From Veillonella intestinalis (GTDB taxonomy: Bacteria > Bacillota > Negativicutes > Veillonellales > Veillonellaceae), in contig NZ_CALPDB010000004.1 of NCBI RefSeq assembly GCF_943193155.1, forward strand, positions 186,001-250,000: a stretch of DNA of 64,000 nt. The letters are read 5' to 3'. Position 1 is the stretch's first letter, and each line of letters opens with the position of its first letter. A program made the translations under genes and the position numbers. The notes under the pieces are model-generated. The model had not been told where the DNA came from. It made no database searches and worked only from the letters and a program-made list of their open reading frames with translations. Shown here one piece after another: positions 24,646-54,488 of this stretch.

Positions 24646-24668
24646 AAGAGTTTGTGTCGTCTATAACA

Positions 24669-24754
24669 TCTTCCTACGACGGCATTATCCGTATCAGGTA
24701 TAAGGGTCGAAGTTAGATGACTTCCTCTCAGCCTACAAATATAAGCTCCCCTGA
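24669..24754 (-). promoter_or_regulatory. TPP (thiamin pyrophosphate) riboswitch
   Basis: The conserved THI-box blocks read in order on the minus strand: AGGGGAGC, GGCTGAGAGG, ACCCTTATACCTGAT, ACGGATAATGCCG and CGTAGGAAG. It lies upstream of a terminator and the thiW-cytX genes, both thiamin-precursor transporters. High TPP should stop their transcription. Confidence 0.95.
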
Positions 24755-24920
24755 AATTTATACCGTGATTATAGCACAGCTCACTTAGATTATGCAACTC
24801 CTATCTGTGAATATTTTAAATTGCTTAGCTTAGAGGTTGTAGATATTCTTTACAGTAGTTGTTAGTTATGTTATTATAATACAATCATTAAAATAGTAAC
24901 TGCCACCGGGTAGTGTGCGT

Positions 24921-38158: not shown

Positions 38159-39043
38159 TTATTTATATTTTCTACGATATGAATGTGGTGTTTCAGAAGT
38201 GGCTTCTTTGAATACTTTGCAGAAATAACTAGGGCGATTATAGCCTAGATTACGAGCGATGGATTCAATGGAAGAATCTGAACCACGAAGCATGAGTTTA
38301 GCTTGCTCTAATTTGCGTTCATTAATGTATTGTACTAAGGATAAGCCCACGTCTTGTTTAAAAATTTTAGACAGATAGGACTCACTTAAGTATACATGAT
38401 TAGCAATATCCCGTAAGGATGGATTATGGCAGAGATTTTTATCGATATAAGTTAAGGCTCGTTTAATTTCTGGACGATAGGTAGTTTTCATTTGCTGACA
38501 ACTACTGCAATTTGTACTTTGTAACTCTGGTAAATCCAGACTCATGTTGAGTATATCAGGGAAATGATGACCAGCCATAAGGTTTAGAACCTTTGTAGCG
38601 CTGGTGATTTCTTCTGATGAATAGTTTGGTAATTGGCGATAGTAACTTTTTAAGGTACTATCGTTTTGCCATTCACTACGAGCCGTGATTAAGGGCATTT
38701 GTGAATCTGTAGCAATGGTCTGACCAGCTACAATATAACCTAATAAATGGCCATTATGAATAATGGGTACAGAAATATCAATAATTCCTGCATGACAGCG
38801 ATAAGCAGACGGACAGCGTCCTTTAGAGGCTTCTAGGCCTCCATAAGCATCGCAATAAGCACACAGTTTAGATAAGGTTGGATGGCTGCGAATGTATTTA
38901 CAGAACTTACTGAAATTATATTTGTTGGACAATACGCGGCCTCGTAAATCTACATATACAGCTGCTAAATCTGTGATGTTAGTAAAATCGCGCATGATTT
39001 CATTAATCATGGTTGATTCAGTCTTAAAATTACTGGTTGGCAC
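38159..39043 (-). CDS. pocR: PocR-type AraC-family activator of the pdu operon
   Basis: 294 residues. The N-terminal PocR sensory domain (about 10-165) has a Cys-rich part: CKYIRSHPTLSKLCAYCD, then GRCPSAYRCHAGIIDISVPI and GYIVAGQ. The C-terminal AraC double HTH (about 190-294) has ALTYIDKNLCHNPSLRDIAN, HVYLSESYLSKIFKQ and LGYNRPSYFCKVFKEAT. In enterobacteria PocR activates pdu and cob genes with propanediol. GTG 39043 has GGGGGTGG upstream; GTG 39052 and ATG 39010 are other options. Divergent from pduA. Confidence 0.9.
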   Translation of the reverse strand: MPTSNFKTESTMINEIMRDFTNITDLAAVYVDLRGRVLSNKYNFSKFCKYIRSHPTLSKLCAYCDAYGGLEASKGRCPSAYRCHAGIIDISVPIIHNGHLLGYIVAGQTIATDSQMPLITARSEWQNDSTLKSYYRQLPNYSSEEITSATKVLNLMAGHHFPDILNMSLDLPELQSTNCSSCQQMKTTYRPEIKRALTYIDKNLCHNPSLRDIANHVYLSESYLSKIFKQDVGLSLVQYINERKLEQAKLMLRGSDSSIESIARNLGYNRPSYFCKVFKEATSETPHSYRRKYK

Positions 39044-39184
39044 CGTTGCCACCCCCTTTTTTCTGTTGTATGGGCGTACAAAGAAAATAAAAAAAGATTA
39101 AAAAGTAGTAATACTTGAAATGATAAAAAATCATGATTAATACAGAACTTACTATAATTTTATGACTTTTGATAATACTTATTA

Positions 39185-39269
39185 TAACAAAAAATTGTTA
39201 AAAGCAGAATGAAATAATGTAATTTAACAAAAATGTGTTAAAAAATGAAATACTGTTATTTTGTATACT
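39185..39269 (+). promoter_or_regulatory. Paired operator sites and -10 box of the pdu operon
   Basis: Two dyads TAACA-N6-TGTTA at 39185-39200 and 39225-39240 are exactly 40 bases apart, close to four helical turns. A -10 box TATACT is at 39264-39269. The expected -35 position is poor (AAAAAT), and the second dyad ends directly before it. This is the layout of an activator-dependent promoter, so these are probable PocR sites. Confidence 0.6.
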
Positions 39270-39329: not shown

Positions 39330-39626
39330 ATGAATTGTATGTCGCAAGAAGCATTAGGCATGGTTGAAACAAAAGGCCTTGTAGGGGCCGTTGAAGCAGC
39401 TGATGCCATGGTAAAAGCCGCTAATGTAACATTAATTGGCACTGAAAAAATTGGGTCTGGTTTGGTAACAGTTATGGTACGTGGCGATGTTGGTGCTGTT
39501 AAAGCCTCTGTAGATGCAGGTGCTGCGGCAGCAGAACGAGTTGGCCAAGTCGTATCTACCCATGTAATTCCACGCCCTCATAGTGAAGTGGAACGCTTAC
39601 TCTTAAAGGAAAAAGGTGATGCGTAA
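39330..39626 (+). CDS. pduA: Microcompartment shell hexamer PduA
   Basis: 98 residues, one BMC domain: [22 protein letters not shown], pore loop [24 protein letters not shown] and [12 protein letters not shown]. The GSGLV pore with its Ser lines the channel that lets propanediol in while holding propionaldehyde. First gene of the pdu operon (AGGAG upstream). Its stop overlaps the pduB start by one base. Closely similar to PduJ (46342-46611). Confidence 0.95.
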
Positions 39627-40441
39627 TGAGTAATACGGACAAAATGGTAGACGAAATTCTAAAGCGTGTATTAAGCAAAGCTGATACTTTATCAGCAACA
39701 GCAGACAAGCAAAGTGAAAGCAAAGGAGCGGAACAAGTTATGGCGAATAGTTGCAGTTTAACAGAATTTATTGGCACAGCTAAATTCGGTGACACAATTG
39801 GTTTAGTAATAGCAAATGTTGATCAGCAAGTGCTTGATGCAATGAAATTGACAAAAAAATATCGTTCAATTGGTGTTGTAGGTGCTCGTACTGGTGCCGG
39901 TCCACACATTATGGCAGCTGACGAAGCGGTAAAAGCAACCAACACAGAAATCGTAAGTATTGAATTAGCTCGTGACACTAAAGGTGGCGCTGGTCATGGT
40001 TCTTTGATTATCTTTGGTGGCGATGATGTTTCTGATGTAAAACGTGCTGTAGAAGTAACACTTAAAGAAGTGGAACGCACATTTGGCGACGTATATGGCA
40101 ATGAAGCAGGTCATATTGAATTACAATATACAGCTCGTGCTAGTCATGCGATTAACACCGCTTTTGGCGCACCAGAAGGCAAAGCTTTTGGTCTTATTGT
40201 AGGCGCTCCAGCTGCTATTGGTGTAGTTATGGCTGATGCTGCTGTTAAAGCTGCTAATGTTGATGTAATTGGCTATGCATCCCCAGCTAATGGCACAAGC
40301 TTCTCCAACGAAGTAATTTTACAAATTTCTGGTGATTCCGGTGCTGTTCGTCAAGCGGTTATTACTGCTCGTGAAATCGGTAAAGAATTATTAGGTACCT
40401 TAGGTAGCGAACCTAAAAATGATGCCCCTTCTTATATCTAA
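39626..40441 (+). CDS. pduB: Microcompartment shell trimer PduB (with internal start for PduB')
   Basis: 271 residues: a tail of about 38 residues (TDKMVDEILKRVLSKAD) and two BMC domains (about 45-260). An internal ATG at 39740 (Met39) is preceded by AAAGGAG at 39723-39729, ten bases away, so the short form PduB' is very likely made too, as in Salmonella. The long form's tail is known to join the shell to the enzyme core. Confidence 0.95.
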   Translation: MSNTDKMVDEILKRVLSKADTLSATADKQSESKGAEQVMANSCSLTEFIGTAKFGDTIGLVIANVDQQVLDAMKLTKKYRSIGVVGARTGAGPHIMAADEAVKATNTEIVSIELARDTKGGAGHGSLIIFGGDDVSDVKRAVEVTLKEVERTFGDVYGNEAGHIELQYTARASHAINTAFGAPEGKAFGLIVGAPAAIGVVMADAAVKAANVDVIGYASPANGTSFSNEVILQISGDSGAVRQAVITAREIGKELLGTLGSEPKNDAPSYI

Positions 40442-40468
40442 ACCTTATACAGAAAGGAAGCTTGAAAT

Positions 40469-42130
40469 ATGAGATCAAAACGTTTTGAAGTATTAAGTCA
40501 GCGCCCTGTTAATCAGGATGGATATGTAAAAGAGTGGGTAGAAGAAGGCTTTATAGCTATGGAATCCCCACAAGATCCAAAGCCTAGTATCCGCATTGAA
40601 AATGGTAAAATTGTTGAACTTGACGGCAAGCGTCGTGAAGATTTCGACTTAATTGATACATTTATTGCTAACTATGCAGTTCGCTTAGAACGAGCTGAAG
40701 AAGTTATGGCTATGGATTCTCGTCAAATCGCTAATATGATTTTGACACCAACTGTGCCACGCAGTGAAATTGCTAGTTTAGCAAAATCTATGACACCAGC
40801 GAAAATGGTAGAAGTAGTAAGTCATTTCAATGTTGTTGAAATGATGCAATGTATGCAAAAAATGCGTGCTCGTCGCACTATGGCTAACCAAGCTCATGTA
40901 ACTAATGTAAACGATAATCCTGTACAAATCGCAGCGGATGCGGCTGAAGGAGCTTTCCGTGGTTTTGCGGAAGAAGAAACTACAGTAGCTGTTGCTCGTT
41001 ATGCACCATTAAACGCTATTAGTATTCTTGTTGGTTCCCAAGCAGGTCGCCCAGGCGTATTGACTCAATGCTCCTTGGAAGAAGCGACTGAATTGGAACT
41101 TGGTATGCGTGGTTTCACAGCTTATGCAGAAACTATTTCCGTATATGGTACGGAAGATGTATTTACTGATGGTGATGATACACCATGGTCTAAAGCATTC
41201 TTAGCATCTGCTTATGCTTCTCGTGGTTTAAAAATGCGTTTCACCTCTGGTACTGGTTCAGAAGTACAGATGGGCCAAGCGGAAGGTAAATCCATGTTAT
41301 ACCTTGAAACACGTTGTCTCTATATTACTAAAGGGGCTGGCGTACAAGGTATCCAAAATGGTTCTGTAAGTTGTATCGGTATTCCAGCAGCTGTACCATC
41401 TGGTATTCGTGCTGTTATTGCAGAAAACTTAATTGCTGCTATGCTCGATCTTGAATGTGCTTCTAGTAATGACCAAACATTCAGTCATTCCGACTTACGT
41501 CGTACAGCACGTACACTTATGCAGTTCTGCCCTGGTACAGACTTCATTTGCTCTGGTTATAGCTCTACGCCAAACTATGACAACATGTTTGCTGGCTCTA
41601 ACTGGGATGCAGAAGATTATGATGACTGGACGATTATTCAACGTGACCTCAAAGTTAACGGTGGTTTGAAACCAGTGCGTGAAGAAGAAGTGGTAGCAGT
41701 TCGTAATAAAGCGGCGCGTGCTCTTCAAGGCTTATTTGCTGAATTAGGTTTGCCAGCTATTACTGATGAAGAAGTAGAAGCAGCAACCTATGCACATGGT
41801 TCCAAAGATATGCCTGAACGTGATAAAGTAGCGGACATTAAAGGGGCTGCTGATATTATGGCTCGTGGCGTAACTGGTATTGACTTTGTTAAAGGCCTCG
41901 CTAAACGTGGTTTTAATGATATTGCTCAAAGTGTACTTAACTTGTTAAAACAAAAAGTTGCTGGTGACTATTTACAAACGGCTGCTATTTTCGACGATAA
42001 ATTTAATGTAAACTCCGCTATTAATAATCCAAATGATTATGCTGGCGTAGGTACTGGTTATCGTTTGGAAGGCGAAGATTGGGAAACCATCAAAAATATT
42101 CCAAATGCAATTAATCCACGAGATATATAA
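40469..42130 (+). CDS. pduC: B12-dependent propanediol/glycerol dehydratase large subunit
   Basis: 553 residues, the usual length for PduC/DhaB1. Starts MRSKRFEVLSQRPVNQDGYVKEW. Active-site segments with the substrate and Ca/K ligands are recognisable: QAHVTNVNDNPVQIAADAAEG, SQAGRPGVLTQCSLEEATEL, TSGTGSEVQMGQAEG, CIGIPAAVPSGIRA and SSNDQTFSHSDLR. Turns 1,2-propanediol into propionaldehyde, and probably glycerol into 3-hydroxypropionaldehyde. Works as (CDE)2 inside the shell. Confidence 0.97.
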   Translation: MRSKRFEVLSQRPVNQDGYVKEWVEEGFIAMESPQDPKPSIRIENGKIVELDGKRREDFDLIDTFIANYAVRLERAEEVMAMDSRQIANMILTPTVPRSEIASLAKSMTPAKMVEVVSHFNVVEMMQCMQKMRARRTMANQAHVTNVNDNPVQIAADAAEGAFRGFAEEETTVAVARYAPLNAISILVGSQAGRPGVLTQCSLEEATELELGMRGFTAYAETISVYGTEDVFTDGDDTPWSKAFLASAYASRGLKMRFTSGTGSEVQMGQAEGKSMLYLETRCLYITKGAGVQGIQNGSVSCIGIPAAVPSGIRAVIAENLIAAMLDLECASSNDQTFSHSDLRRTARTLMQFCPGTDFICSGYSSTPNYDNMFAGSNWDAEDYDDWTIIQRDLKVNGGLKPVREEEVVAVRNKAARALQGLFAELGLPAITDEEVEAATYAHGSKDMPERDKVADIKGAADIMARGVTGIDFVKGLAKRGFNDIAQSVLNLLKQKVAGDYLQTAAIFDDKFNVNSAINNPNDYAGVGTGYRLEGEDWETIKNIPNAINPRDI

Positions 42131-42142
42131 GGAGGAATCCAC

Positions 42143-42823
42143 ATGGCTGAAGTTAATGAGCAAGTTTTACGCGCACTCATCATGGAAGTGCTTAAAGAAA
42201 TGGGCACTGCTAGCGAGCCTGTAACATTCTCTGGCTCCTCCGCAGCACCTGCTTCGCGTCCTAAAGAAGAAGATACTGATGATACTTGGATTCAAACAGG
42301 TGGTCCAGCTGAATCTCATACAGCCCCTGATGAAGTAGTTATCGCAGTAGGTCCTGCCTTTGGTCGTAGCCAACGGACTACGATTGTAGGGGTACCTCAT
42401 CGCAATGTAATCCGTCAATTAGTAGCTGGTATTGAAGAAGAAGGTTTAAAAGCACGAGTTGTACGTGTATATCGTTCTTCTGACGTGGCGGCTGTAGCTG
42501 TTGAAGGGGATAAATTATCTGGTTCCGGTATTTGTATCGGTATTCAGTCTAAAGGAACGACAGTAATTCACCAACGCGATTTACAGCCTCTTTCCAACTT
42601 AGAATTATTCCCACAAGCTCCATTACTTACGGAAGAAGTATATCGCGCCATTGGTAAAAATGCGGCTAAATATGCTAAAGGGGAATCCCCAACACCAGTA
42701 GCGACCTTAAATGACCAGATGGCACGGCCTAAATATCAAGCCTTGTCAGCCCTATTACACATTAAAGAAACAAAACGGGTAGTTAAAGGTAAACCGGCTG
42801 ATGAATGCCGCGTGAGCCTATAA
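42143..42823 (+). CDS. pduD: Propanediol dehydratase medium subunit
   Basis: 226 residues. N-terminal amphipathic helix [18 protein letters not shown] is a typical encapsulation peptide, followed by a Ser/Pro linker to about residue 55. The core has [56 protein letters not shown] and [21 protein letters not shown], which contact cobalamin. AAGGAGG precedes the ATG. Confidence 0.96.
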
Positions 42824-42833
42824 GGAGGCCACT

Positions 42834-43352
42834 ATGAGTACAGAAATGGAATCTATGATTCGTAAGATTTTAGAAGATATGCAAAAAGGAACGCCAGCAC
42901 CAACTACAGCTAGCACAACGCACACATCTTCCAGTGAACGTGTGGCTACCGTAGCTGACTATCCAATTGCTAAAAAACATCCTGAATGGATTCGCATTGG
43001 TAATAAGAGCCTTGATGACATTACTTTAGATAGTGTTATGAATGGTCAAGTATCTATGGATGATATGCGTATTAGCCCAGAGATTTTGAAGGCACAAGGT
43101 CAAATTGCTAAAGCAGGCGGTCGTGACCAAATCGAATTCAACTTCTCCCGTGCTGCTGAAATGACAAAAGTAGGGGATAAACGCTTACTTGAAATGTACA
43201 ATGCACTTCGCCCTTATCGTTCTTCTAAACAAGAATTATTGGCGATGGCTGATGAATTAGAAAGAGAATATGGCGCTGTGATTTGTGCTGATTTCGTTCG
43301 TGAAGCAGCTGAAAATTATGAACGCCGTAAAAAATTAAAAGGTGATAACTAA
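42834..43352 (+). CDS. pduE: Propanediol dehydratase small subunit
   Basis: 172 residues. A short N-terminal helix (MESMIRKILEDMQKG) and a Thr/Ser linker, then the conserved core: DYPIAKKHPEWI, LDDITLDSVMNGQVSMDDMRIS, QAQIAKAGG-like GQIAKAGGRDQIEFNF and LLEMYNALRPYRSSKQEL. The N-terminal helix looks like a second targeting peptide on the same enzyme. Ten bases after pduD. Confidence 0.95.
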   Translation: MSTEMESMIRKILEDMQKGTPAPTTASTTHTSSSERVATVADYPIAKKHPEWIRIGNKSLDDITLDSVMNGQVSMDDMRISPEILKAQGQIAKAGGRDQIEFNFSRAAEMTKVGDKRLLEMYNALRPYRSSKQELLAMADELEREYGAVICADFVREAAENYERRKKLKGDN

Positions 43353-43370
43353 GAGTTAGGAGTTAAGCAT

Positions 43371-45197
43371 ATGAAGCGAGTCGTTGGTATTGATATAGGA
43401 AATTCTACAACTGAATCAGCCTTAGCGGAAATTCACGAGTCTGGTGAAGTTCGTTTCCTAGGGTCGGCCATTGCTGATACGACTGGCATTAAGGGGACGA
43501 AGGATAATATTCAAGGTTTATTTGCTTCCCTTCGACAATTAGTCGCAAAAACGGGCTTGTCCTTGCAGGACATCGATTTAATACGTATCAATGAAGCTAC
43601 CCCGGTTATTGGCGATGTGGCGATGGAAACAATTACGGAGACTATTATTACCGAATCAACGATGATCGGTCATAATCCAAAAACCCCTGGTGGCCTTGGT
43701 ATTGGTGTGGGTCAGACGGCTCATATTTTACAACTGCTAGATAAACCTATGACTGAGGACTACATCGTAGTAGTACCGAAAGAAATAGATTTTCAACTGG
43801 TCGCTGAATTGATTAACGCCTATGTAGTTAAAGGGTATCGCATTACAGGTGCTATATTACAAGCCGATGATGGCGTGCTCGTAGCTAATCGTTTACAACA
43901 ACCTATTCCTATTATTGATGAAGTAGCCTTTGTAGATAAAGTACCACTTGGTATGTTAGCAGCTGTAGAAGTAGTTGAGCCAGGTAAAGTTATTTCCCAA
44001 TTGTCTAATCCTTATGGCATTGCTACCGTGTTTAAACTGTCTGCTGAAGAGACCAAGAATATTGTACCTATAGCAAGAGCTCTCATTGGTAATCGGTCAG
44101 CCGTAGTAATTAAAACTCCAGCTGGGGATGTAAAAGAGCGGGTAATTCCCGCTGGCTCGGTGGTTGTTAGTGGTGATGGTCGCACTGTATCAGTGGATAT
44201 ATCGGCAGGGGCGGAACAGATTATGGCCACCCTTGGACAAGTATCGAAAATTGAAAATGTATGTGGCGAAGCTGGCACCAATGTAGGCGGTATGCTTGAA
44301 AAAGTACGTCAAACTATGGCTAATTTGACGAATAAATCACCAAATGAAGTGTTTATTGAAGACTTATTAGCCGTAGATACGTCAGTACCTATTAATGTAA
44401 AAGGGGGGCTCGCTGGAGAGTTCTCCATGGAACAAGCAGTAGGCATTGCTTCGATGGTAAAATCAGATCATTTACAGATGGAGATTATTGCTAAAGAAGT
44501 AGAGCGAGAATTGCGCATTCCTGTTGAAATTGGTGGCCAAGAAGCGGAGTCGGCTATTCTGGGTGCACTAACAACACCAGGCACAGAAACACCGCTGGCG
44601 ATTCTTGACTTAGGTGCTGGTTCAACTGATGCTTCTATTATGGGACCTGATGGCAAGGTAAAAGCGATTCATTTAGCCGGTGCTGGTAATATGGTAACCA
44701 TGTTAATTAACTCGGAGCTTGGCTTAGAAGATATTCATTTAGCAGAAAGTATTAAGAAATTCCCGTTAGCAAAGGTAATTAGTGTGTACCACATTCGTCA
44801 TGAAGATGGCAATGTGCAGTTCTTTACGGATCCATTACCAGCGTCGTTATTTGCTAAGACTGTTATTGTAACAGACGAAGGACTTGTACCGATTGAAGGC
44901 GACATGTCCATGGAAAAAATAAAGATTGTGCGACAGACTGCTAAAGAACGTGTATTTGTAACTAATTCCTTACGTGCTCTTCGTGCTGTAAGTCCAACGC
45001 ACAATGTACGAGATATTCCATTTGTAGTTATTGTAGGTGGTTCTGCATTAGACTTTGAAGTACCACAACTAGTAACAGATGCCTTATCTCATTACAATTT
45101 AGTGGCTGGACGAGGTAATGTACGGGGCACAGAAGGAGCTCGTAACGCAGTAGCTACAGGACTTATCTTAGCCTATGCAAAGGAACGGAGGCGATAA
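43371..45197 (+). CDS. pduG: Diol dehydratase reactivase large subunit
   Basis: 608 residues, actin/Hsp70-type ATPase. VGIDIGNSTTESALAE is the first phosphate motif; LAILDLGAGSTDASIM is the second. GLGIGVGQTAHILQLLDKPM and AGTNVGGMLEKVRQTM are typical of PduG/DdrA. With PduH it swaps damaged cobalamin for adenosylcobalamin in PduCDE. Ribosome site GGAG before the ATG. Confidence 0.96.
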   Translation: MKRVVGIDIGNSTTESALAEIHESGEVRFLGSAIADTTGIKGTKDNIQGLFASLRQLVAKTGLSLQDIDLIRINEATPVIGDVAMETITETIITESTMIGHNPKTPGGLGIGVGQTAHILQLLDKPMTEDYIVVVPKEIDFQLVAELINAYVVKGYRITGAILQADDGVLVANRLQQPIPIIDEVAFVDKVPLGMLAAVEVVEPGKVISQLSNPYGIATVFKLSAEETKNIVPIARALIGNRSAVVIKTPAGDVKERVIPAGSVVVSGDGRTVSVDISAGAEQIMATLGQVSKIENVCGEAGTNVGGMLEKVRQTMANLTNKSPNEVFIEDLLAVDTSVPINVKGGLAGEFSMEQAVGIASMVKSDHLQMEIIAKEVERELRIPVEIGGQEAESAILGALTTPGTETPLAILDLGAGSTDASIMGPDGKVKAIHLAGAGNMVTMLINSELGLEDIHLAESIKKFPLAKVISVYHIRHEDGNVQFFTDPLPASLFAKTVIVTDEGLVPIEGDMSMEKIKIVRQTAKERVFVTNSLRALRAVSPTHNVRDIPFVVIVGGSALDFEVPQLVTDALSHYNLVAGRGNVRGTEGARNAVATGLILAYAKERRR

Positions 45198-45199
45198 AT

Positions 45200-45577
45200 A
45201 TGGAACTTGTCATTACGGCAAAGCCAACCATTATGATTTATTACCACCGTGGTGTAGGGATGGATCAATTTCAAGATGTCTTATATGGCATTGAAGAAGA
45301 AGGGATTCCCTATACTTTAGAAGAACGAGCTACTAGTAGCGAAGTGCTTACTATGGCTGATGAAGCATCACATGTATCTGCTTTGTCAGTAGGCTTAGGT
45401 TGCACAGCGGATACCTTAGTATTGAGTTATAAAAACTTGCCACCGGAACAGTTTATGTATCGGTTGCAATCGTATAAAAATGAGCGGCAAGCCATGCGGG
45501 CGTTGGGGGCCAATGCAGCTCGCTTAGTAAAGGGAAATCCCTTTAAGTCCGACCCCAGATTGGAGGTGGCATTTTGA
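45200..45577 (+). CDS. pduH: Diol dehydratase reactivase small subunit
   Basis: 125 residues. [30 protein letters not shown] and the C-terminal [15 protein letters not shown] match PduH/DdrB. The fold resembles PduD, which it displaces during reactivation. Two bases after pduG; its TGA stop overlaps the TTG start of the next gene. Confidence 0.93.
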
Positions 45578-46293
45578 AAGACGCATTAGGACTCGTAGAA
45601 GTAGCTGGTTTAGCAACGGCGATTCATGTAGCGGATGCCATGGTAAAGTCAGCTAATGTGGCTATTATCGATATCGAAAAAGCGAAAGGCAGCGGTTGGA
45701 TGACCGTGAAGGTTCGCGGCGATGTAGGCGCAGTACAGGCAGCCGTTCAAGCTGGGGCAGCGCAAGCAGAGCAATTTGCTCATTTAATTGCTCAAAAAGT
45801 AATTCCAAGACCGGCAGAAGGTTTGGATGCTTGGTTGTTAGCGAGTGGCGGCAATGCTGTATTACAAGGGCTTGCTGAAAAAACTACAGCTGATGATACA
45901 AAGGCAAGCACTGATGTTTCAAAGACTGCTGTTGAAAAACCAAAGGCAACAGTCGATAAGCCAAAGGCAACGGCTGATAAGTCAAAGGCGGTTGATGAGG
46001 CAAAGGCAGCTAAAACAGATATGCCAGCTACAGCGAAGGCAGAAGCTGTTACTGAACTAGATGAAACAAAGAGTGCATTGCTAGAGGTGTTTAAGCCAGG
46101 TAGTACGGCTAAAGCAGAAGCTAAGTCAACTACGGCTACAAGCAAATCTAGTACAGCGACTAAATCAAGTGCAACGGCATCAGGCACTGCTAGTAAGGCA
46201 AGCAGTACGGCTAAAGCTACTAGTAGTACAACATCTAAAGGGGCACCGAAAAAAAGACCTAGTCGCGCTAAAACAACGAAGCCAAAGGCATAA
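45574..46293 (+). CDS. pduK: PduK-like shell protein with histone-like Lys/Ala/Ser/Thr tail
   Basis: 239 residues. Residues 1-90 are a BMC domain ([20 protein letters not shown], pore [13 protein letters not shown]). Residues 105-239 are low complexity. First come seven-residue repeats ([21 protein letters not shown]), then an acidic/hydrophobic helix [17 protein letters not shown] at 160-176, then a K/S/T/A run ending [15 protein letters not shown]. No cysteine is present. The operon position H-K-J supports PduK. TTG start with GGAGG seven bases upstream, coupled to pduH. The tail may bind enzymes, polyanions or neighbouring shells; this is inference. Confidence 0.85.
45934..46011 (+). repeat. 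21-base coding repeat in the pduK tail
   Basis: Three imperfect copies of a 21-base unit coding K-P-K-A-T-x-D, then a decayed fourth. Lies within the low-complexity tail of the shell protein. Confidence 0.7.
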
Positions 46294-46341
46294 GCCTTCG
46301 GTATATACAAATAGTAAAGATGTTTTAAAGGAGGATTTACA

Positions 46342-46611
46342 ATGAATAATGCATTAGGCATGGTAGAAACAAAAGGATTAGTAGGCGCTATTGAAGCGGC
46401 TGACGCAATGGTAAAAGCAGCAAATGTAACGTTGACTGGCTATGAAAAAATCGGTTCTGGTTTAGTAACTGTTATGGTTCGTGGTGATGTTGGGGCTGTT
46501 AAAGCAGCTGTTGATGCTGGTTGTGCAGCAGCTAGCAAAGTGGGTGAAGTGGTATCCACTCATGTAATCCCTCGTCCTCATGGCGATGTAGAAGGCATTT
46601 TAGTTAAATAA
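46342..46611 (+). CDS. pduJ: Microcompartment shell hexamer PduJ
   Basis: 89 residues, a single BMC domain almost identical to PduA over its length, with the same KIGSGLVTV pore loop and a shorter C-terminus. Usually the most abundant shell protein. AAAGGAGG lies eight bases before the ATG, one of the strongest ribosome sites in the operon. Confidence 0.95.
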
Positions 46612-46632
46612 TAACGTATAAAGGATGTAATT

Positions 46633-47253
46633 ATGGATAGAGATGCTTTAAAAGCGCTCATTCGTCAAGTTATCCAAGAAGCACAAACGCCAGTGATTCC
46701 TATTGGTATATCTAATCGACATATCCATTTGAGTCAAGCTGATTATGATCATTTATTTCCTCATGTAACATTGGAGCGAAAAAAGGATTTGAAACAGCCT
46801 GGCGAGTTTGCCTCAGAGCAGGTAGTAACCTTAGTGGGACCTAAGAATGAAATCACTAAGGTTCGCCTCTTAGGGCCTTTGCGCAAAGAGTCACAAGTTG
46901 AAATTTCTATGACCGATGCTCGTACCTTAGGTGTGAATCCACCAATCGTATTATCGGGACATTTGGAAACAGCAGTGCCGATTACGCTTAAAACAGAGCA
47001 TGCGCAATTGACCTTACCTTGCTGTATTGTGGCGAAACGACATATTCATGTGAATGCAGAGGATGCGCCTAAATTAGGCGTTACCAATGGTGAATCAGTA
47101 GCTGTGCGGGTGCGAACTGATCAACGAACAACGGTGTTTGAAGATGTGATTATTCGCGTATCCCCTAACTATGTGACTGAAATGCACTTGGATACAGATG
47201 AGGCGAATGCAGCTCAAGTAGGAAATGACACGACAGCAACAATTATAAGGTAG
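46633..47253 (+). CDS. pduL: Phosphate propanoyltransferase PduL
   Basis: 206 residues. N-terminal amphipathic helix MDRDALKALIRQVIQEA is an encapsulation peptide. The two barrel domains carry the zinc and phosphate motifs: ISNRHIHLS near 27, QPGEFASEQ, LLGPLRKESQVEIS and AKRHIHVNAEDA. Turns propionyl-CoA into propionyl phosphate and recycles CoA inside the shell. Confidence 0.96.
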   Translation: MDRDALKALIRQVIQEAQTPVIPIGISNRHIHLSQADYDHLFPHVTLERKKDLKQPGEFASEQVVTLVGPKNEITKVRLLGPLRKESQVEISMTDARTLGVNPPIVLSGHLETAVPITLKTEHAQLTLPCCIVAKRHIHVNAEDAPKLGVTNGESVAVRVRTDQRTTVFEDVIIRVSPNYVTEMHLDTDEANAAQVGNDTTATIIR

Positions 47254-47262
47254 GTGGCAAGT

Positions 47263-48105
47263 ATGCGAAGCATAGACGAAGTGAATGAATTATTGGCAGC
47301 GTTTAACCAATGTGTGTTAGAAGGCGCTACACGGACAATTTCAGAAAAAGAAGCCCATACATTACGTGTAGGTATTGATCTTGGAACATCTTCTATCGTA
47401 ATTGCCGTAGTAGATGCACAGGGGCTGCCTGTATATGGCGCTTTGGAATATGCAAAAGCAGTACGTGATGGATTAGTAGTAGATTATATAGGGGCTGTTA
47501 CGATTACAAGACAGTTAAAAGCTAAAGCGGAAGAGGCACTAGGTTGTACTTTGACTAGAGCAGCGGCAGCCGTACCACCAGGCACATTAGGTAAAAATAA
47601 AGATGTAGTAGGCCATGTATTAGAAGGTGCTGATTTTGAAGTATCCGCTATATACGATGAACCAACGGCTGCAGCTAATGTGCTTGGCTTAGTTAATGGG
47701 GCTGTGGTTGATGTAGGTGGTGGCACGACTGGTATTACCATCATTAAACGGAGTAAAGTTAGCTATACCGTTGATGAACCAACTGGGGGCTCTCATATGA
47801 CATTGGTGTTAAGTGGGAGTTATGGACTTTCTCAAGATGAAGCAGAGGTATTAAAGCGTGATGCTTCACGAGAACGAGAAGTGTATCCCTTGGTACGGCC
47901 AGTGGTTGAAAAAATGGCTATTATTTCCGCCAATGCTTTGGTAACTGGTAAATATCGTAAGAATGGTCCTGTACATGTAGTCGGTGGTGCTACGAACTTC
48001 ACTGAATTTGCCGATACTTTTAAAAAGGTGCTGGGACGTGAGGTGATTAAGCCTCTATATCCGGAATTTGTAACACCTTTAGGAATTGCCTTAGGCAGTT
48101 CGTAG
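47263..48105 (+). CDS. eutJ: EutJ-like Hsp70-family protein
   Basis: 280 residues from ATG 47263 (AAGGTAGGTGG upstream). Hsp70/actin fold: RVGIDLGTSSIVIAVVDAQG, DEPTAAANVLGLVNGAVVDVGGGTTGI and the C-terminal HVVGGATNFTEFA. EutJ accompanies ethanolamine operons and the pdu operons of lactobacilli, always near pduL/M. Probably a chaperone for microcompartment enzymes. Function not proven. Confidence 0.88.
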   Translation: MRSIDEVNELLAAFNQCVLEGATRTISEKEAHTLRVGIDLGTSSIVIAVVDAQGLPVYGALEYAKAVRDGLVVDYIGAVTITRQLKAKAEEALGCTLTRAAAAVPPGTLGKNKDVVGHVLEGADFEVSAIYDEPTAAANVLGLVNGAVVDVGGGTTGITIIKRSKVSYTVDEPTGGSHMTLVLSGSYGLSQDEAEVLKRDASREREVYPLVRPVVEKMAIISANALVTGKYRKNGPVHVVGGATNFTEFADTFKKVLGREVIKPLYPEFVTPLGIALGSS

Positions 48106-48127
48106 AGGCTCTGAAACAGAGGTAATT

Positions 48128-48619
48128 ATGGACGAACTTATTGCAGTAGTACTCAAACGCTTGCAGGCGCGAATGGAAAGCCAAGGCACAGTAGACTTGG
48201 CTGACGAAAGCCAGCTTGTTGAAACTATTCTGCTTCGTCATCAGCGTATCGAAGTGACAGGTGTAACCCAGGCCCATTTGGAGGCATTAGTACAACGCCA
48301 GCCAGGTCCTTGGTTAACTTGGTTAGATCAAGCGATTGCCTATGGTTGTGAAATTACATTAGTCACGACTATGGCTGTAAATCAACAATGGAATCCACAT
48401 ATGGTGTTAGCTTGGCCACTTCGTTTTATGGATAAACAAGGACGGACAGTATATAGTTTTAAGGAGCGGATAATTAGTGCGTCAGCGATTCGTACCTGCA
48501 AGACGAAGTCCGTTATTCTTAAATTTTGTGGACAACGATTCACCGCCTTAGGGTTTGACGAATTGCGGTCCCGCCAGCTGGAATGTGTAGAAGGGACGAA
48601 ACGATATGCAGACTGGTAG
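48128..48619 (+). CDS. pduM: Microcompartment assembly protein PduM
   Basis: 163 residues. Position between eutJ and pduN and the sequence WLTWLDQAIAYGCEITLVTT plus the C-terminal RFTALGFDELRSRQLE support PduM. Needed for correct assembly in Salmonella; no enzyme activity known. The N-terminus MDELIAVVLKRLQARMES is an amphipathic helix like an encapsulation peptide. Overlaps pduN by 14 bases. Confidence 0.82.
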   Translation: MDELIAVVLKRLQARMESQGTVDLADESQLVETILLRHQRIEVTGVTQAHLEALVQRQPGPWLTWLDQAIAYGCEITLVTTMAVNQQWNPHMVLAWPLRFMDKQGRTVYSFKERIISASAIRTCKTKSVILKFCGQRFTALGFDELRSRQLECVEGTKRYADW

Positions 48620-48878
48620 AGTAATAGGTAGTATTGTATCAACACAAAAGCATGATTCCTTAGTAGGCTTAAAGCTTATGATTGTACAATACGTAGATGG
48701 CAACCAAGAACCGTTACCTTCCTATGAAGTGGCGGCCGACACGGTGAGCGCGGGGATTGGTGAATATGTGTTATTAACACGTGGTTCGTCAGCACGTCAT
48801 GTGTTTGGCGATGGACAAAATAATAATAGTGCTGTAGATTGCGCTATTGTTGGTATTATTGATAGTTTTGATAAGTGA
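48606..48878 (+). CDS. pduN: Microcompartment vertex pentamer PduN
   Basis: 90 residues, EutN/CcmL family: GRVIGSIVSTQKHDSLVGLKL, then YEVAADTVSAGIGEYVLLTRGSSAR and AIVGIIDSFD. Caps the vertices of the shell. Starts inside the end of pduM, so the two are coupled. Confidence 0.94.
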   Translation: MQTGRVIGSIVSTQKHDSLVGLKLMIVQYVDGNQEPLPSYEVAADTVSAGIGEYVLLTRGSSARHVFGDGQNNNSAVDCAIVGIIDSFDK

Positions 48879-48889
48879 GGAGGCCAGCC

Positions 48890-49987
48890 ATGGCAATTTA
48901 CACAAAAACTGGCGACAAAGGTACGACAGGACTCTTTGACGGCACTCGTGTAGCAAAGAACTCAGAACGAGTGAATACATATGGTACGCTTGACGAGTTA
49001 AATGCGCACTTAAGTGTGTGTGAAAAGCTGGTTCGGTATCCAGAAACGAAAACTATCTTACATCGGTTACAAGGCTTGCTTTTTCAGCTTTGTGCAGAAG
49101 TAGCGACAGTGGATCAAGCTAAATTACAACAATATAGCACCCTCGTTAGCGAGGCGGATATAAAAGAGCTAGAAGCAATCATTGATCGCTATACGCAAGC
49201 CTTGCCACCGCTTAGAAGTTTTATATATCAAGGTAATAATTTAGCTGCTGCAGAATTGCATGTAGCTCGTACAGTATGTCGTAGAGCAGAGCGCATGCTC
49301 AATGGGATGCGACAAGGTGAACCAGTAAGACCAACAGCGTTGGCTTTTGTAAATCGCCTATCTGATTGTATTTATACCTTAGCTCGTATGGAAGACTTTA
49401 TCTTTCACGTAGATGAAATTGTAACAAAAGTAGTAGCAAAAATAGAACAATTACCGGCTGAAGATGTCAGTAAAGGTGATTCAATACAACTTAGCTCAAC
49501 AGAGATAGGTAAGACAGATGTAGTGCCAGCGACCTTTGGGCAGGCTAGTGCGTTAGATAGTAATGAGGAAGCACAAGTGCTGCGGCGTATGGCACAACAA
49601 TTATTGGAAGGTGCCACTGCAAAAAGTGAAGCTATAGGCGTACCTGTAGTGATTGCCATTGTGGATCGTCATGGTAATCCCGTGTTGACGTATCGCATGG
49701 TAGATGCTTTGTTAGTAAGTACTGATATTGCCGAAGGCAAAGCGTATACAGCAGTAGCACTTAAATGTAAGACTGAACAACTAAATGAAGTAACTCAGCC
49801 AGGTGCTGAGTTATATCAAATAGAATCTATGGTTACACGCCCCTTAGTAACATTTGGTGGCGGGTTTCCCTTGACAGTGGCAGGGCGAATTATAGGCGGT
49901 CTCGGCATTAGTGGCGGGACAGTGGCTGAAGATATTGCTATTGGAAAGTATGCCATGGATTACATGGAGGCTAATTATGGAAAATAG
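48890..49987 (+). CDS. pduO: PduO-type cob(I)alamin adenosyltransferase with C-terminal GlcG/DUF336 domain
   Basis: 365 residues from ATG 48890 (GTGAGGAGG upstream). The ATR domain (about 1-190) has the ATP motif TKTGDKGTTGLFDGTRV and RRAERMLNG, then FVNRLSDCIYTLARM. The C-terminal GlcG/HbpS domain (about 235-365) has EAIGVPVVIAIVDRHGNPV and FPLTVAGRIIGGLGISGG, known to bind haem in lactobacillar PduO. Makes adenosylcobalamin for PduCDE. Overlaps pduP by 11 bases. Confidence 0.95.
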   Translation: MAIYTKTGDKGTTGLFDGTRVAKNSERVNTYGTLDELNAHLSVCEKLVRYPETKTILHRLQGLLFQLCAEVATVDQAKLQQYSTLVSEADIKELEAIIDRYTQALPPLRSFIYQGNNLAAAELHVARTVCRRAERMLNGMRQGEPVRPTALAFVNRLSDCIYTLARMEDFIFHVDEIVTKVVAKIEQLPAEDVSKGDSIQLSSTEIGKTDVVPATFGQASALDSNEEAQVLRRMAQQLLEGATAKSEAIGVPVVIAIVDRHGNPVLTYRMVDALLVSTDIAEGKAYTAVALKCKTEQLNEVTQPGAELYQIESMVTRPLVTFGGGFPLTVAGRIIGGLGISGGTVAEDIAIGKYAMDYMEANYGK

Positions 49988-51392
49988 ACAAGAATTAGAA
50001 CGCATGATTCGCTCAATGGTAATGAGCATGATGAACGGCACCGATACAGGCGCTGCTGTTAGTGAAGGGGCGTTACCTGACGAACCAGGTGTTTTTACAA
50101 CTGTAAATGCAGCTGTAGCAGCTGCTAAACAAGCGCAAATTCAATTTGAAGAATGTACCTTAGCAACGCGTAGCAAAGCGATTGAAGCAATTCGCCAAGG
50201 GATGCGTCCGCTAGTGAATAAATTGGCTCAAATGACCTATGAAGAAACTGGCATGGGACGGGTGGCCGATAAAATTATTAAATTAAACTTAACAATTGAT
50301 AAAACGCCAGGTGTAGAGGATTTAAAGACAGAATGTGAAACAGGCGATAATGGTATGACTTTATATGAATTATCTCCTTATGGCGTTATTGGCGCTGTTA
50401 CACCAAGTACCAACCCAAGTGAAACTTTGATTTGTAATGCTATTGGTATGTTGGCAGCGGGCAATGCTATTTTCTTTAGTGTACATCCTGGGGCTAAGCA
50501 ATTATCCCGTTGGTTGGTAAGCCAATTGAATCGTATTGTAGCCGATGCTATTGGTATTAATAACTTAATTGTTACCATTGCAGAACCTTCTATTGAAGCA
50601 GCTCAAGAAATGATGGTACATCCAGATATTCCGTTATTAGTAGTAACAGGTGGCCCTGGGGTAGTACATCAAGCTTTATGCAGTGGCAAGAAGGTTATTG
50701 GCGCTGGTGCTGGTAATCCACCAGCTTTTGTTGATGAAACAGCAGATATTCGTAAAGCAGCTCAAGATATTGTAATGGGGGCTAGCTTTGATAATAATAT
50801 TCTCTGCATTGCTGAAAAAAGTGTAGTAGCTATTCGTTCTATCGTTGATCAGTTAATTAGTGAAATGAAACTGGCAGGAGCGATCCTCATTGAGAAGGAA
50901 GAAGAGATTCAGAAGTTACTTGATATTACACTACAAAAAAATGAGACACCAAGCCGTAAATATGTAGGTCGTAATGCAGGTGTTATCTTACGTGATGCTG
51001 GTATTGAAGTAGATGGTGATCCTCGTTTGATTATTATGAAAACGGATAAACATCATCCATTCGCTACGATTGAAATGCTTATGCCAATTTTACCAATCAT
51101 AACAGTAGATAGCTTTGAAGAAGGGTTAGCTACAGCGTTATTCTTAGAAGCAGGCTTGCATCATACAGCTACTATGCATTCCTTAAATATGGAGCGCCTT
51201 AATAAAATGGCACGGGCTATGAAAACATCTATTTTTGTTAAGAATGGCCCATCTTATGCTGGTCTTGGCTATAACGGAGAAGGCACTACAACCTTTACGA
51301 TTGCTACACCAACTGGGGAAGCGACTACTTCGGCTCGTCATTTTGCGCGTCGCCGTCGTTGCTGCTTAACTACAGGCTTCCAAATCCGCTAG
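49977..51392 (+). CDS. pduP: CoA-acylating propionaldehyde dehydrogenase
   Basis: 471 residues from ATG 49977 (GGAGG upstream). The N-terminal helix RQELERMIRSMVMSMM is an encapsulation peptide. Aldehyde dehydrogenase motifs: VIGAVTPSTNPSETLICNAIG, GGPGVVHQAL, GAGAGNPPAFVDE and the catalytic Cys in SFDNNILCIAEKS. Oxidises propionaldehyde to propionyl-CoA with NAD+. Overlaps pduO. Confidence 0.96.
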   Translation: MENRQELERMIRSMVMSMMNGTDTGAAVSEGALPDEPGVFTTVNAAVAAAKQAQIQFEECTLATRSKAIEAIRQGMRPLVNKLAQMTYEETGMGRVADKIIKLNLTIDKTPGVEDLKTECETGDNGMTLYELSPYGVIGAVTPSTNPSETLICNAIGMLAAGNAIFFSVHPGAKQLSRWLVSQLNRIVADAIGINNLIVTIAEPSIEAAQEMMVHPDIPLLVVTGGPGVVHQALCSGKKVIGAGAGNPPAFVDETADIRKAAQDIVMGASFDNNILCIAEKSVVAIRSIVDQLISEMKLAGAILIEKEEEIQKLLDITLQKNETPSRKYVGRNAGVILRDAGIEVDGDPRLIIMKTDKHHPFATIEMLMPILPIITVDSFEEGLATALFLEAGLHHTATMHSLNMERLNKMARAMKTSIFVKNGPSYAGLGYNGEGTTTFTIATPTGEATTSARHFARRRRCCLTTGFQIR

Positions 51393-51403
51393 GAGGTAGT
51401 CTC

Positions 51404-52525
51404 ATGAATAAATGGACCTTTCCTACGCAAATCTATGCAGGTGAAGATGCCTTATTGCGTTTAAGTCATTTTAAGCAAGAAAAAATTCTAGTTGTATGTG
51501 ATCCGTTTTTAGAAGGGACGGCTAATTTAGAAGAAGTATTAAATTTGATGCGTCCTCATAATGCGGTAAGTGTATATACTGACGTAGTTCCTGACCCGCC
51601 TATTGGGCATGTGGTAAAAGGGGTAGAGTTAGTACAACAGCAGCAACCATCCGTGGTAGTGGCCATTGGTGGTGGTTCCGCTATTGATTTAACGAAAGCG
51701 ATATTATATTTTGTTCGCAAAATGGGCTATCAAGGGGTTCGTCATTTTACAGTAGTACCTACAACCAGTGGTACTGGCTCTGAAGTGACCTCCTTTGCAG
51801 TGATTACAGACCCGCAATCACAGACAAAGTATCCCATTGTAGATGATAGTTTATTGCCACAAGAAGCAATTCTAACACCTTTATTTGTGAAAACAGCACC
51901 ACCAAAGGTAACGGCCTATAGTGGTATGGATGTATTAGTTCATGCCATTGAAGCCCTCGTGGCTAAAGGAGCCAATCATTTTACCGATGCGTTAGCAGAA
52001 AAAGCATTGGCATTAGTATTTACATACTTGCCTAAGTGCTTTGCACCAGCTGCTACAGAAGCCAATCGGATGGCTATGCATGAAGCCTCTTGCATGGCTG
52101 GGCTAGCTTTTAATCAAGCGGGGTTAGGGATTACTCACGCTTTGGCGCATCAATTAGGTGGTCAATTCCATATTCCTCATGGATTAGCAAATACAATGTT
52201 AGTAGCACGCGTGGTTATGTTTAATGCTTTTCACGATGAAACTGCGTATAAAAAATATGTCCAGCTAGCAAAGAAGCTCGGCTTTGCAGAGGCTGATGAA
52301 GATTCGCGGGATGCTTTAGTGGCATTAGTAAAAGCAATTTTAAATTTGGCCCGTTCTTTGGAGTGCCCGCTCAATATTACGGCAGCTGCTTCAGTTTCGG
52401 CCCAAGAAGCAAGACAGAAAGTATCAGCTATGGCGGCTAAAGCATTACAAGATATGACCTATCAAACGAATCCATATGCCGCTTCGCAAGATGATTTGGA
52501 AAATCTATTATTGATGATTATGTAA
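51404..52525 (+). CDS. pduQ: Iron-containing 1-propanol dehydrogenase
   Basis: 373 residues from ATG 51404 (AGGAGGT upstream). NAD site VVAIGGGSAIDLTKAI; TSGTGSEVTSFAVIT; the metal-binding His residues are in HEASCMAGLAF, GITHALAHQLGGQFHIPHGLANT. Reduces propionaldehyde to propanol and regenerates NAD+ for PduP within the compartment. Confidence 0.94.
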   Translation: MNKWTFPTQIYAGEDALLRLSHFKQEKILVVCDPFLEGTANLEEVLNLMRPHNAVSVYTDVVPDPPIGHVVKGVELVQQQQPSVVVAIGGGSAIDLTKAILYFVRKMGYQGVRHFTVVPTTSGTGSEVTSFAVITDPQSQTKYPIVDDSLLPQEAILTPLFVKTAPPKVTAYSGMDVLVHAIEALVAKGANHFTDALAEKALALVFTYLPKCFAPAATEANRMAMHEASCMAGLAFNQAGLGITHALAHQLGGQFHIPHGLANTMLVARVVMFNAFHDETAYKKYVQLAKKLGFAEADEDSRDALVALVKAILNLARSLECPLNITAAASVSAQEARQKVSAMAAKALQDMTYQTNPYAASQDDLENLLLMIM

Positions 52526-52535
52526 GGAGCCGCGT

Positions 52536-53261
52536 ATGGACACAACACAAATCCTGATTAGTGAATTTATTGGTACGGCTGTATTAATGGCATTTGGCAG
52601 TGGTACAAATGCTTCTGTTTTACTGAAAAATACATTGGCAAAGGCTTTTAACCCGAATTGGATGACGATTATGTTTGGTTGGGCCTTTGGGGTTGCCTTT
52701 GCGGTGTATATTGGGATTGCCCTAGGTGGCCCTGCTCATTTGAATCCTGCTTTGACAATAGCATTAGCTGCTGGTGGCATGTTCCCATGGGACCATGTAT
52801 TACCAGTTAGTTTAGCTCAAATTGCAGGTGCCTTTATGGGTTCGGCTTTGGTTATGCTACATTATTATCCTCATTTTAAACAGACGAAAGAGGACGAAGG
52901 TAATGTGGTAGGGATTTTTGCTACAGCACCAACTAGTGATAATCGTGTGCTAAACGTAATTTCTGAAATTATTGCAACCTTTATGTTTATGCTCGCTATT
53001 TTATGCTTAGGCAAAATGGGGGATGGTTTATTCCCGTTTATCGTAGGTGTTTTAGTAGCTTCTATTGGTTTATCGTTCGGTTCAACTACAGGGTTTGCGT
53101 TAAATCCAGCTCGTGATTTCGGGCCTCGTTTAGCCTATACTATTTTGCCAGTACCAAATCGTGGTGCGACAAATTGGGCGTATGCGTGGGTGCCAATCAT
53201 TGGGCCAATTATCGGTGCTAGTGCAGCTGTAGGTTTATTCTTAGCGATTGCACCTAAATAG
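52536..53261 (+). CDS. pduF: Propanediol/glycerol diffusion facilitator (aquaglyceroporin)
   Basis: 241 residues, MIP family, six helices. Two NPA boxes: HLNPALTIALAAGG and GFALNPARDFGPRLAY; the Asp after the second box marks the glycerol-conducting type. Lets propanediol or glycerol into the cell. Eleven bases after pduQ (AAGGAG). In Salmonella pduF lies beside pocR instead. Confidence 0.93.
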   Translation: MDTTQILISEFIGTAVLMAFGSGTNASVLLKNTLAKAFNPNWMTIMFGWAFGVAFAVYIGIALGGPAHLNPALTIALAAGGMFPWDHVLPVSLAQIAGAFMGSALVMLHYYPHFKQTKEDEGNVVGIFATAPTSDNRVLNVISEIIATFMFMLAILCLGKMGDGLFPFIVGVLVASIGLSFGSTTGFALNPARDFGPRLAYTILPVPNRGATNWAYAWVPIIGPIIGASAAVGLFLAIAPK

Positions 53262-53318
53262 TTAGTAATAGACTAGATAATTTGCTAAATTAATCTAAGT
53301 CTAAGACTATATATTTGT

Positions 53319-53380
53319 GATGGGTCTGTAATATAAAACCTCCCAAAAGTAGCGTTTGCTAATTTATATTACAGGCCATC
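53319..53380 (+). other. Long hairpin between pduF and pduU
   Basis: GATGG-GT-CTGTAATATAAA (53319-53337) pairs with TTTATATTACAG-G-CCATC (53363-53380). The 25-base loop holds a small AGC/GCT stem. No T-run follows, so it may be an RNA processing or stability element. Confidence 0.65.
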
Positions 53381-53450
53381 ATTTAAGATAATTACAAGTC
53401 ATCATAATGAGATATTAATAGGGACACATATTGGTAGAAAGGATATATGT

Positions 53451-53813
53451 ATGGATTTTTTAGAAGCAGTTGAAAACAAACAACGTATTATCCAAGAGTT
53501 TGTACCTGGTAAACAGGTTACGATTGCACATATCATTGCCAATCCAAAACCTGAATTATTCCGTAAAATGGGATTGGAAGAAAAGCAGCGTAGTGCTATT
53601 GGTATTTTAACAATTACTCCTGGTGAAGGGACTATCATTGCTGCAGATATTGCTACTAAAGCAGCAGGCATTGAATTGGGATTTGTGGATCGCTTTTCAG
53701 GCGCCTTGTTAATTACTGGGGATGTATCGAGCGTAGAGTCTGCTATGAAGGGTGTTATTGATGGGTTAGATAAAATTTTAGGTTTTTTCCCTACAAAAAT
53801 TACGCGTACCTAG
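53451..53813 (+). CDS. pduU: Shell protein PduU (EutS-like, permuted BMC domain)
   Basis: 120 residues. [21 protein letters not shown], then [51 protein letters not shown] match PduU/EutS, a circularly permuted hexamer with a small N-terminal barrel that plugs the pore. A ribosome site AAAGGA precedes the ATG. Set off from pduF by 190 bases with a hairpin. Confidence 0.93.
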
Positions 53814-54041
53814 TTTAATGTTGATTGTATGGTGTAGTATGGATAATATAATCTAATATGGATAGTATAAATCTGTATAGATACGTATAATTTAGTGTGG
53901 ATTATATCGACTGATTATTAGTGTAATGCTTATAAATGTTGTATTATGTGTACTTTGCAATAGGTATTCATAGTAATTCTGTAGTATAATAAATAGGTGA
54001 TTTAAGTGATACCATATCGACTTAGATTGTGAGGTGATTAT

Positions 54042-54488
54042 ATGGAACAGGCGCTAAAGACTGTAATTATGGTAGGACGTACGGAGGTTGGTAAAACAAC
54101 ACTAGCTAATACATTGATGTATGGTAGTCCTGAAGCCTTAAAAACACAATCGATTGGTCGAATTGGGTCGATTATTGATACGCCAGGCGAGTTTATTGAA
54201 AATCCAATCTATTATCGGGCTATTTTATTAAGTGCCTATGATGCGGATATAGTATTGTTTTTGAATGAAGCTAACGAATCGGAAAGCATCTTTCCTCCTA
54301 ATTTTGCAGCCTCTTTTAATCGTGAGGTTATTGGAGTTGTAACGAAAGTAGATTTAGGGGGCGACGTAACTAGAGCTCGCAAGAATTTGGAAGCTGCTGG
54401 CGTAAAAACAATTTTTGAGATTTCCGTACATGATACTGAATCAGTACAGCGTTTACGTGACTATATTGCGCAGGATAAAGAAGCGTAA
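54042..54488 (+). CDS. pduV: EutP/PduV-family small GTPase
   Basis: 148 residues. P-loop GRTEVGKTTL at 12-21, G3 DTPGEF, G4-like TKVD (Asn replaced by Thr). The IENPIYYRAILLSAYDADIVLFL segment is typical. PduV docks on PduU and has been tied to microcompartment movement in engineered cells. GAGGTG precedes the ATG. Confidence 0.93.
   Translation: MEQALKTVIMVGRTEVGKTTLANTLMYGSPEALKTQSIGRIGSIIDTPGEFIENPIYYRAILLSAYDADIVLFLNEANESESIFPPNFAASFNREVIGVVTKVDLGGDVTRARKNLEAAGVKTIFEISVHDTESVQRLRDYIAQDKEA

Follow-up and report, generated by a model that had tools for sequence, protein, structure and literature searches.

We analysed a 64,000-nt stretch (hereafter the window) of the 2.03-Mb Veillonella intestinalis genome, in which a pocR-like gene for an AraC-family regulator (38159..39043, minus strand) and a pduA-like BMC shell gene (39330..39626, plus strand; PF00936) diverge, with 286 bp between them. 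The pocR-like gene was assigned from its PF10114 and HTH_18 domains and from relatives that carry an ATG at its start position. Its longest ORF opens at a GTG at 39052, and the ATG of the relatives corresponds to a position three codons further in; the gene therefore probably begins with the GTG at 39043. The pduA-like gene is the first of a pdu operon, the remainder of which extends over 39626..53261 (plus strand). According to Pfam and NCBIfam models, it contains shell genes, diol dehydratase subunits, a reactivase, pduL, a eutJ-like and a PDU_like gene, a gene for a vertex protein, pduO and pduP, as well as genes for a pduQ-like alcohol dehydrogenase and a MIP channel. The eutJ-type gene lies within the operon at 47254-48105, flanked by pduL and the PDU_like gene. 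An extra BMC shell gene and a pduV/eutP-like gene, both identified with Pfam, are found at 53451..54488 on the plus strand.

Two exact TAACA-N6-TGTTA sites lie 40 bp apart between pocR and pduA, as the initial annotation had reported. The distal site, dyad 1 (TAACAAAAAATTGTTA, 39185..39200), and the proximal one, site 2 or dyad 2 (TAACAAAAATGTGTTA, 39225..39240, plus strand), are both putative PocR boxes, and they are the only matches without mismatches in the window. Single sites of this kind are not rare, because the exact pattern occurs at three places genome-wide, compared with four for a reversed control; the third place is inside a 428-aa ORF. With up to two mismatches, the window holds 50 matches, both dyads counted, against a shuffle mean of 61, which is not above chance. 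Dinucleotide shuffling of the 286-bp intergenic region produced at least one exact site in 127 of 50,000 shuffles and two sites in none of them. The window contains 100 palindromes of the 5-6-5 form, among which the dyads are the sole equal-arm pair within 60 bp. It is the pair, and not either single site, that is improbable by chance. The two sites had also been described as sitting on the same face of the helix. As 40 bp corresponds to 3.8 turns at 10.5 bp per turn, this holds only approximately.

The sites lie among putative promoter elements. The −10 of the pdu promoter is TATACT (39264..39269, plus strand); in the alignment of the genus genomes it reads TATACT or TATAAT in six of seven, and V. 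magna has TAAAAT. Located 17 bp upstream of it, the hexamer AAAAAT (39241..39246, plus strand) occupies the position of the missing −35. It begins immediately after dyad 2, in agreement with the defective −35 that had been noted as touching the second dyad. On the minus strand, conservation led us to assign TGTTATAAT (39181..39189) as the probable extended −10 of pocR. All seven genus genomes retain this element, which shares bases with the left arm of dyad 1, and TGTTATACT is retained in all six Veillonella sensu stricto loci. Judging from these sequences, dyad 1 probably overlaps the pocR −10. A consensus promoter scan proposed a different minus-strand pair, TTAACA/TATTAT; the promoter-like sites in that scan were no more numerous than in shuffles.

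We determined how well the arrangement is conserved within the genus in a set of seven genomes, the window's own among them. The combination CAAAAANNTGTTA...AAAAANGTGTTA occurred in exactly one copy per genome and always spanned 53 bp, which corresponds to a dyad spacing of 40 bp in all seven. The spacing was unchanged even in V. magna, although its intergenic region shares no more than 57-60% identity with those of the other genus genomes. Dyad 1 reads TAACAAAAAATTGTTA in six genomes and TAACAAAAATTTGTTA in the remaining one. In site 2, the right part AAAAAwGTGTTA is kept in every genome, while the left arm is TAACA in the window genome, TAGCA in two others, TGGCA in one and TCGTA in three. 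Paired full dyads, as originally described, are thus a property of the window genome and not of its relatives, where the left arm of site 2 drifts. The pattern TNRYAAAAAWKTGTTAW was found at 19 places in the seven genomes, 14 of which are the pairs; of the five others, the two that were inspected, both in the window genome, lie inside ORFs.

The protein encoded next to the dyads combines a PocR sensory domain (PF10114, 3.7e-37) with a C-terminal pair of AraC-type helix-turn-helix motifs (HTH_18, 1e-20). The two motifs have similar recognition segments, SYLSKIFK and SYFCKVFK. Its score against the NCBI equivalog model for PocR, NF047788, was 261.8 bits, which does not pass the curated cut-off of 500. 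The window protein is therefore a PocR orthologue by context and domains, and not by this strict model. Salmonella PocR shares 37% identity with it, and the Listeria protein 38%. Within the genus, the pocR products of Veillonella sp. R32 (95%), V. ratti and V. seminalis (both 83%) and V. magna (57%) share progressively less identity with it, which places the window genome in this group of Veillonella. Residues N42, R51, D64 and Q107 of Salmonella PocR are reported as important for the propanediol response in the accessible text of PMC11264322; all four are kept in the window protein, as N43, R52, D65 and Q108. The first of these is S in V. magna. In a phylum-wide sample, PocR genes were detected in 3 of 398 genomes at E 1e-45, including the window's own and one with the sensor part only. 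A scan of genome contigs identified 20 loci, and the 14 that are full or nearly full-length belong to Veillonella or Megasphaera.

To extend the comparison beyond this group, we inspected pdu and cob promoters from one record each of Salmonella, Klebsiella, E. coli and Listeria. In the Salmonella gap after pocR (Pcob), TAGCAATATTTTGCTA begins at base 2 and TAACAATAAATTGTCA at base 78, so that their starts are 76 bp apart. The PocR boxes of this cob promoter are described in PMC11264322, as far as its text is accessible, as a 20-bp box I, a gap of 52 bp and a 48-bp box II. That text gives no letters; our placement of the two dyads on boxes I and II is compatible with its description. At Ppdu, E. 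coli has TAACAAATTATTGTCA and Salmonella, in the equivalent position, TAGCAAAATTTTGCTT. Dyad 1 together with these Salmonella and E. coli sites gave us the pattern TARCAAN4TTGYNA, which was then tried on Listeria and Klebsiella; the foreign boxes were in part picked by eye. The pattern matched once in the E. coli stretch, a count reached by 6 of 200 shuffles, and three times at two places in the Salmonella stretch, a count reached by none of 200. The 302-kb Salmonella record has two places, both within Pcob. Of the two in the 692-kb Klebsiella record, one is in Pcob and the other inside envR, and the Klebsiella pdu promoter contains only matches with two mismatches. The 407-kb Listeria record has the pattern at three places, the same number as for the reversed control. 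All three are in gaps: between pocR and pduA, before eutS-pduV-cobUSC, and ahead of an ECF transporter gene with cbi genes downstream, a gap from which an AraC-family gene diverges. These places fit a review whose accessible text names pdu and pocR as activated by PocR in Listeria, and cob and cbi as possible further targets (PMC7677406). In the seven Veillonella genomes, the pattern totalled 6 to 22 matches against 8 to 15 for the reversed control. Since these totals are within or above the control range, the pattern alone is not specific in Veillonella.

We also assessed the correspondence in both directions with matrices. With a matrix built from nine foreign boxes, the window dyads ranked first (39185) and second (39225) of 63,985 positions. 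Conversely, a matrix built from seven distinct Veillonella sites was used to scan six foreign loci, and a pdu or cob box ranked first in every one. In the Salmonella locus, Pcob I, Ppdu and Pcob II took ranks 1 to 3. In the two overlapping Listeria loci, rank 1 went to the pdu dyad, rank 2 to the eutS dyad and rank 3 to a further pdu site, GCGCAAAATTGTGTTA; in the third Listeria locus, the match ahead of the ECF gene came first. Rank 1 was also taken by E. coli Ppdu and by Klebsiella Pcob I, with Klebsiella Pcob II at rank 4. Because the foreign boxes had partly been picked by eye, we ran a pattern-free test on eight foreign promoters, which are not all independent, as the enterobacterial ones are related to each other. 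The most shared positions of the intergenic region were 39184 and 39185, with at most one of 12 arm positions off in five of the eight promoters, a result reached by none of 300 shuffles. At two mismatches the test was weaker: the best position was 39184 with seven of eight promoters, and 3 of 300 shuffles reached that number. Together, these matches suggest at the sequence level that the PocR switch has kept its DNA code across bacteria as distant as Veillonella, Salmonella, E. coli and Listeria.

The box does not accompany every PocR. In six Veillonella sensu stricto and four Megasphaera PocR loci, neither strand of the region upstream of pocR (459-540 bp) contained a match with up to one mismatch (0 of 10). 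Their PocR proteins are 40-51% identical to that of the window, whereas Listeria PocR, at only 38% identity, is nonetheless accompanied by a box. Five of the six Veillonella sensu stricto loci had one-mismatch matches elsewhere in the stretch examined. Their sequences suggest that PocR of Veillonella sensu stricto may read another sequence. Between pocR and the next shell gene, these loci share another conserved block, with repeats such as GCATTTT...GCATTTT. No box was present in the inspected promoter gaps of PocR-like loci from Enterobacter kobei, Citrobacter and Cetobacterium. The E. kobei locus had no match across 6.9 kb, Citrobacter had one one-mismatch place, distant from pocR, and Cetobacterium had two, both inside annotated genes. 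On a Citrobacter plasmid (3287-15843), a shell operon with a glycyl-radical protein in place of the B12-dependent dehydratase is followed by a PocR-like gene.

A search for the motif at cobalamin genes, which the initial annotation had proposed, found none in the window genome, where the box was present only at pdu/pocR. For this search we placed the exact matches relative to those cobalamin genes that had been located, which are not all of them. Besides the pdu/pocR box, the pattern TARCAAN4TTGYNA has 13 exact places in this genome, 10 inside ORFs of at least 110 aa and three in gaps beside other genes. The scan therefore does not support cobalamin genes as further targets of the box. Four cobalamin riboswitches scored above the cut-off in the genome, one of which lies near genes that we read from their ORFs as cobalamin-pathway-like. 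Within the window, the sole Rfam match above the cut-off is a TPP riboswitch at 24654-24762 on the minus strand.

Taking the directly computed features, namely the sites with their spacing and genus conservation, the absence of a −35, the PocR domains together with the conserved residues, and the resemblance to foreign pdu/cob promoters, we infer PocR binding, activation, ligand response and autoregulation at these sites. We consider it likely, with a probability of roughly 0.84, that the two sites form the operator of the neighbouring PocR, and that diol-bound PocR occupies both and activates the −35-less pdu promoter. PocR, encoded adjacent to the dyads, would be a diol-responsive activator of the AraC family. 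With 1,2-propanediol or a similar diol, it would occupy the distal (39185-39200) and proximal (39225-39240) boxes. From the proximal box, which ends where the −35 should begin, PocR would recruit RNA polymerase to this promoter, whose −10 is good, and this recruitment would switch on the pdu operon. With dyad 1 lying over the probable −10 of pocR, this one site may link the activation of pdu with the control of pocR itself, by activation or repression. The arrangement had been called the design expected for PocR activation, and the PocR domains, the conserved residues and the same dyad class at foreign pdu/cob promoters argue for that assessment.

The genus alignment had suggested a different architecture for the PocR elements, namely purely asymmetric AraC-type direct repeats, AAAAAwKTGTTA, spaced 40 bp apart. 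The protein would still be PocR and the mirror symmetry would be secondary, with the left arm TAACA of dyad 1 held in place by the minus-strand −10 of pocR and the left arm of site 2 accidental. This would account for a left arm of site 2 that varies between TAACA, TAGCA, TGGCA and TCGTA beside a TGTTA that is invariant in all seven genomes. It also agrees with the coincidence of the left arm of dyad 1 with TGTTATAAT, and with Veillonella sensu stricto, which keeps TGTTATACT in six of six loci without the right arm. The palindromic sites of Salmonella and Listeria caused us to demote this model to a rival, which we now regard as rather unlikely: both TAGCAATATTTTGCTA in Salmonella Pcob and TAACAATATATTGCTA in Listeria form near-perfect dyads, and no such −10 was identified there.

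These foreign sites also bear on whether PocR is the regulator at all. Palindromes of the 5-6-5 form are a common type of operator for dimeric helix-turn-helix proteins, so the dyads might be bound by a different dimeric regulator unrelated to PocR, such as a repressor or a redox or catabolite sensor. Rex-type half-sites TTGTTA/TAACAA exist, but in reverse order. We find such a regulator improbable, given that Listeria and Salmonella carry this class of dyad at pdu/cob promoters and that the pair occurs once in the window genome, next to pocR. Chance symmetry is more improbable by far. The intergenic region is 74% A+T and single sites are at background level, but the absence of the pair from all 50,000 shuffles, the genus conservation and the cross-phylum matches all oppose an origin by chance.

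The operator that we propose for PocR resembles known systems in part. AraC-type monomer sites, as in AraC and MarA, consist of two boxes about one turn apart, with a spacing of about 21 bp. Arms 11 bp apart and a proximal site next to the −35 are shared with such sites, whereas the near-palindromic boxes and the 40-bp spacing set the Veillonella arrangement apart. As in Salmonella cob boxes I and II, two boxes are positioned upstream of the −35 and next to pocR, and both Salmonella Pcob dyads match TARCAAN4TTGYNA, as dyad 1 does. The Veillonella starts are, however, 40 bp apart and not 76, and the promoter is that of pdu and not of cob. Salmonella Pcob arms are TGYTA/TGTCA where Veillonella has TGTTA, and the published Salmonella boxes measure 20 and 48 bp. 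In Listeria monocytogenes, pocR and pduA likewise diverge, and the gap contains TAACAATATATTGCTA, which matches perfectly, as well as GCGCAAAATTGTGTTA, a second site similar to Veillonella site 2; unlike in Veillonella, these sites start 87 bp rather than 40 bp apart.

One joint reading of these likenesses is that a near-palindromic PocR code, approximately TARCAA-N4-TTGYYA, is kept across Negativicutes, Bacilli and Gammaproteobacteria, with one PocR chain reading each of the 16-bp palindromes. We put this forward tentatively and with some doubt. Being similar, the two recognition segments, SYLSKIFK and SYFCKVFK, could be accommodated in adjacent major grooves, and a PocR dimer would hold two palindromes at tolerant spacings of 40, 76 or 87 bp. 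The code would have been lost or changed in Veillonella sensu stricto and Megasphaera.

The initial annotation stated that the PocR site is not widely defined outside enterobacteria, and our literature search agrees with this. Within the accessible text of the open literature, including PMC11264322, PMC3162504, PMC4245221 and PMC7677406, we found no PocR box consensus outside enterobacteria; an earlier consensus is possible, for example in the Salmonella papers of 1995/1996. According to the accessible text of a 2024 paper, in which the Salmonella boxes are the only ones described, it is still unclear how PocR interacts with its promoters (PMC11264322). On the basis of the sequences compared here, a cross-phylum PocR box consensus is possible. 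PocR is the switch for microcompartment-based propanediol use, and if the consensus holds from Veillonella to Listeria and Salmonella, PocR targets could be predicted directly, which would help the design of diol biosensors beyond enterobacteria. It would also raise the testable question of how an AraC-type protein reads a palindrome.

The additional Listeria boxes, before eutS-pduV-cobUSC and before the gene preceding cbi, had no counterpart that we could find in the window genome. A Listeria-style box ahead of the second shell/pduV group was not found: in a scan of the gaps preceding the shell and pduV/eutP-like genes at 53451..54488, there was no PocR box at up to two mismatches, and only three-mismatch matches were found. 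The gap ahead of the shell gene at 53451 in this second pdu gene group does contain a strong hairpin (53318-53381), with 12-base arms CTGTAATATAAA/TTTATATTACAG that become longer on folding, a folding energy of −22 kcal/mol and a z-score of −5.1 relative to shuffles.
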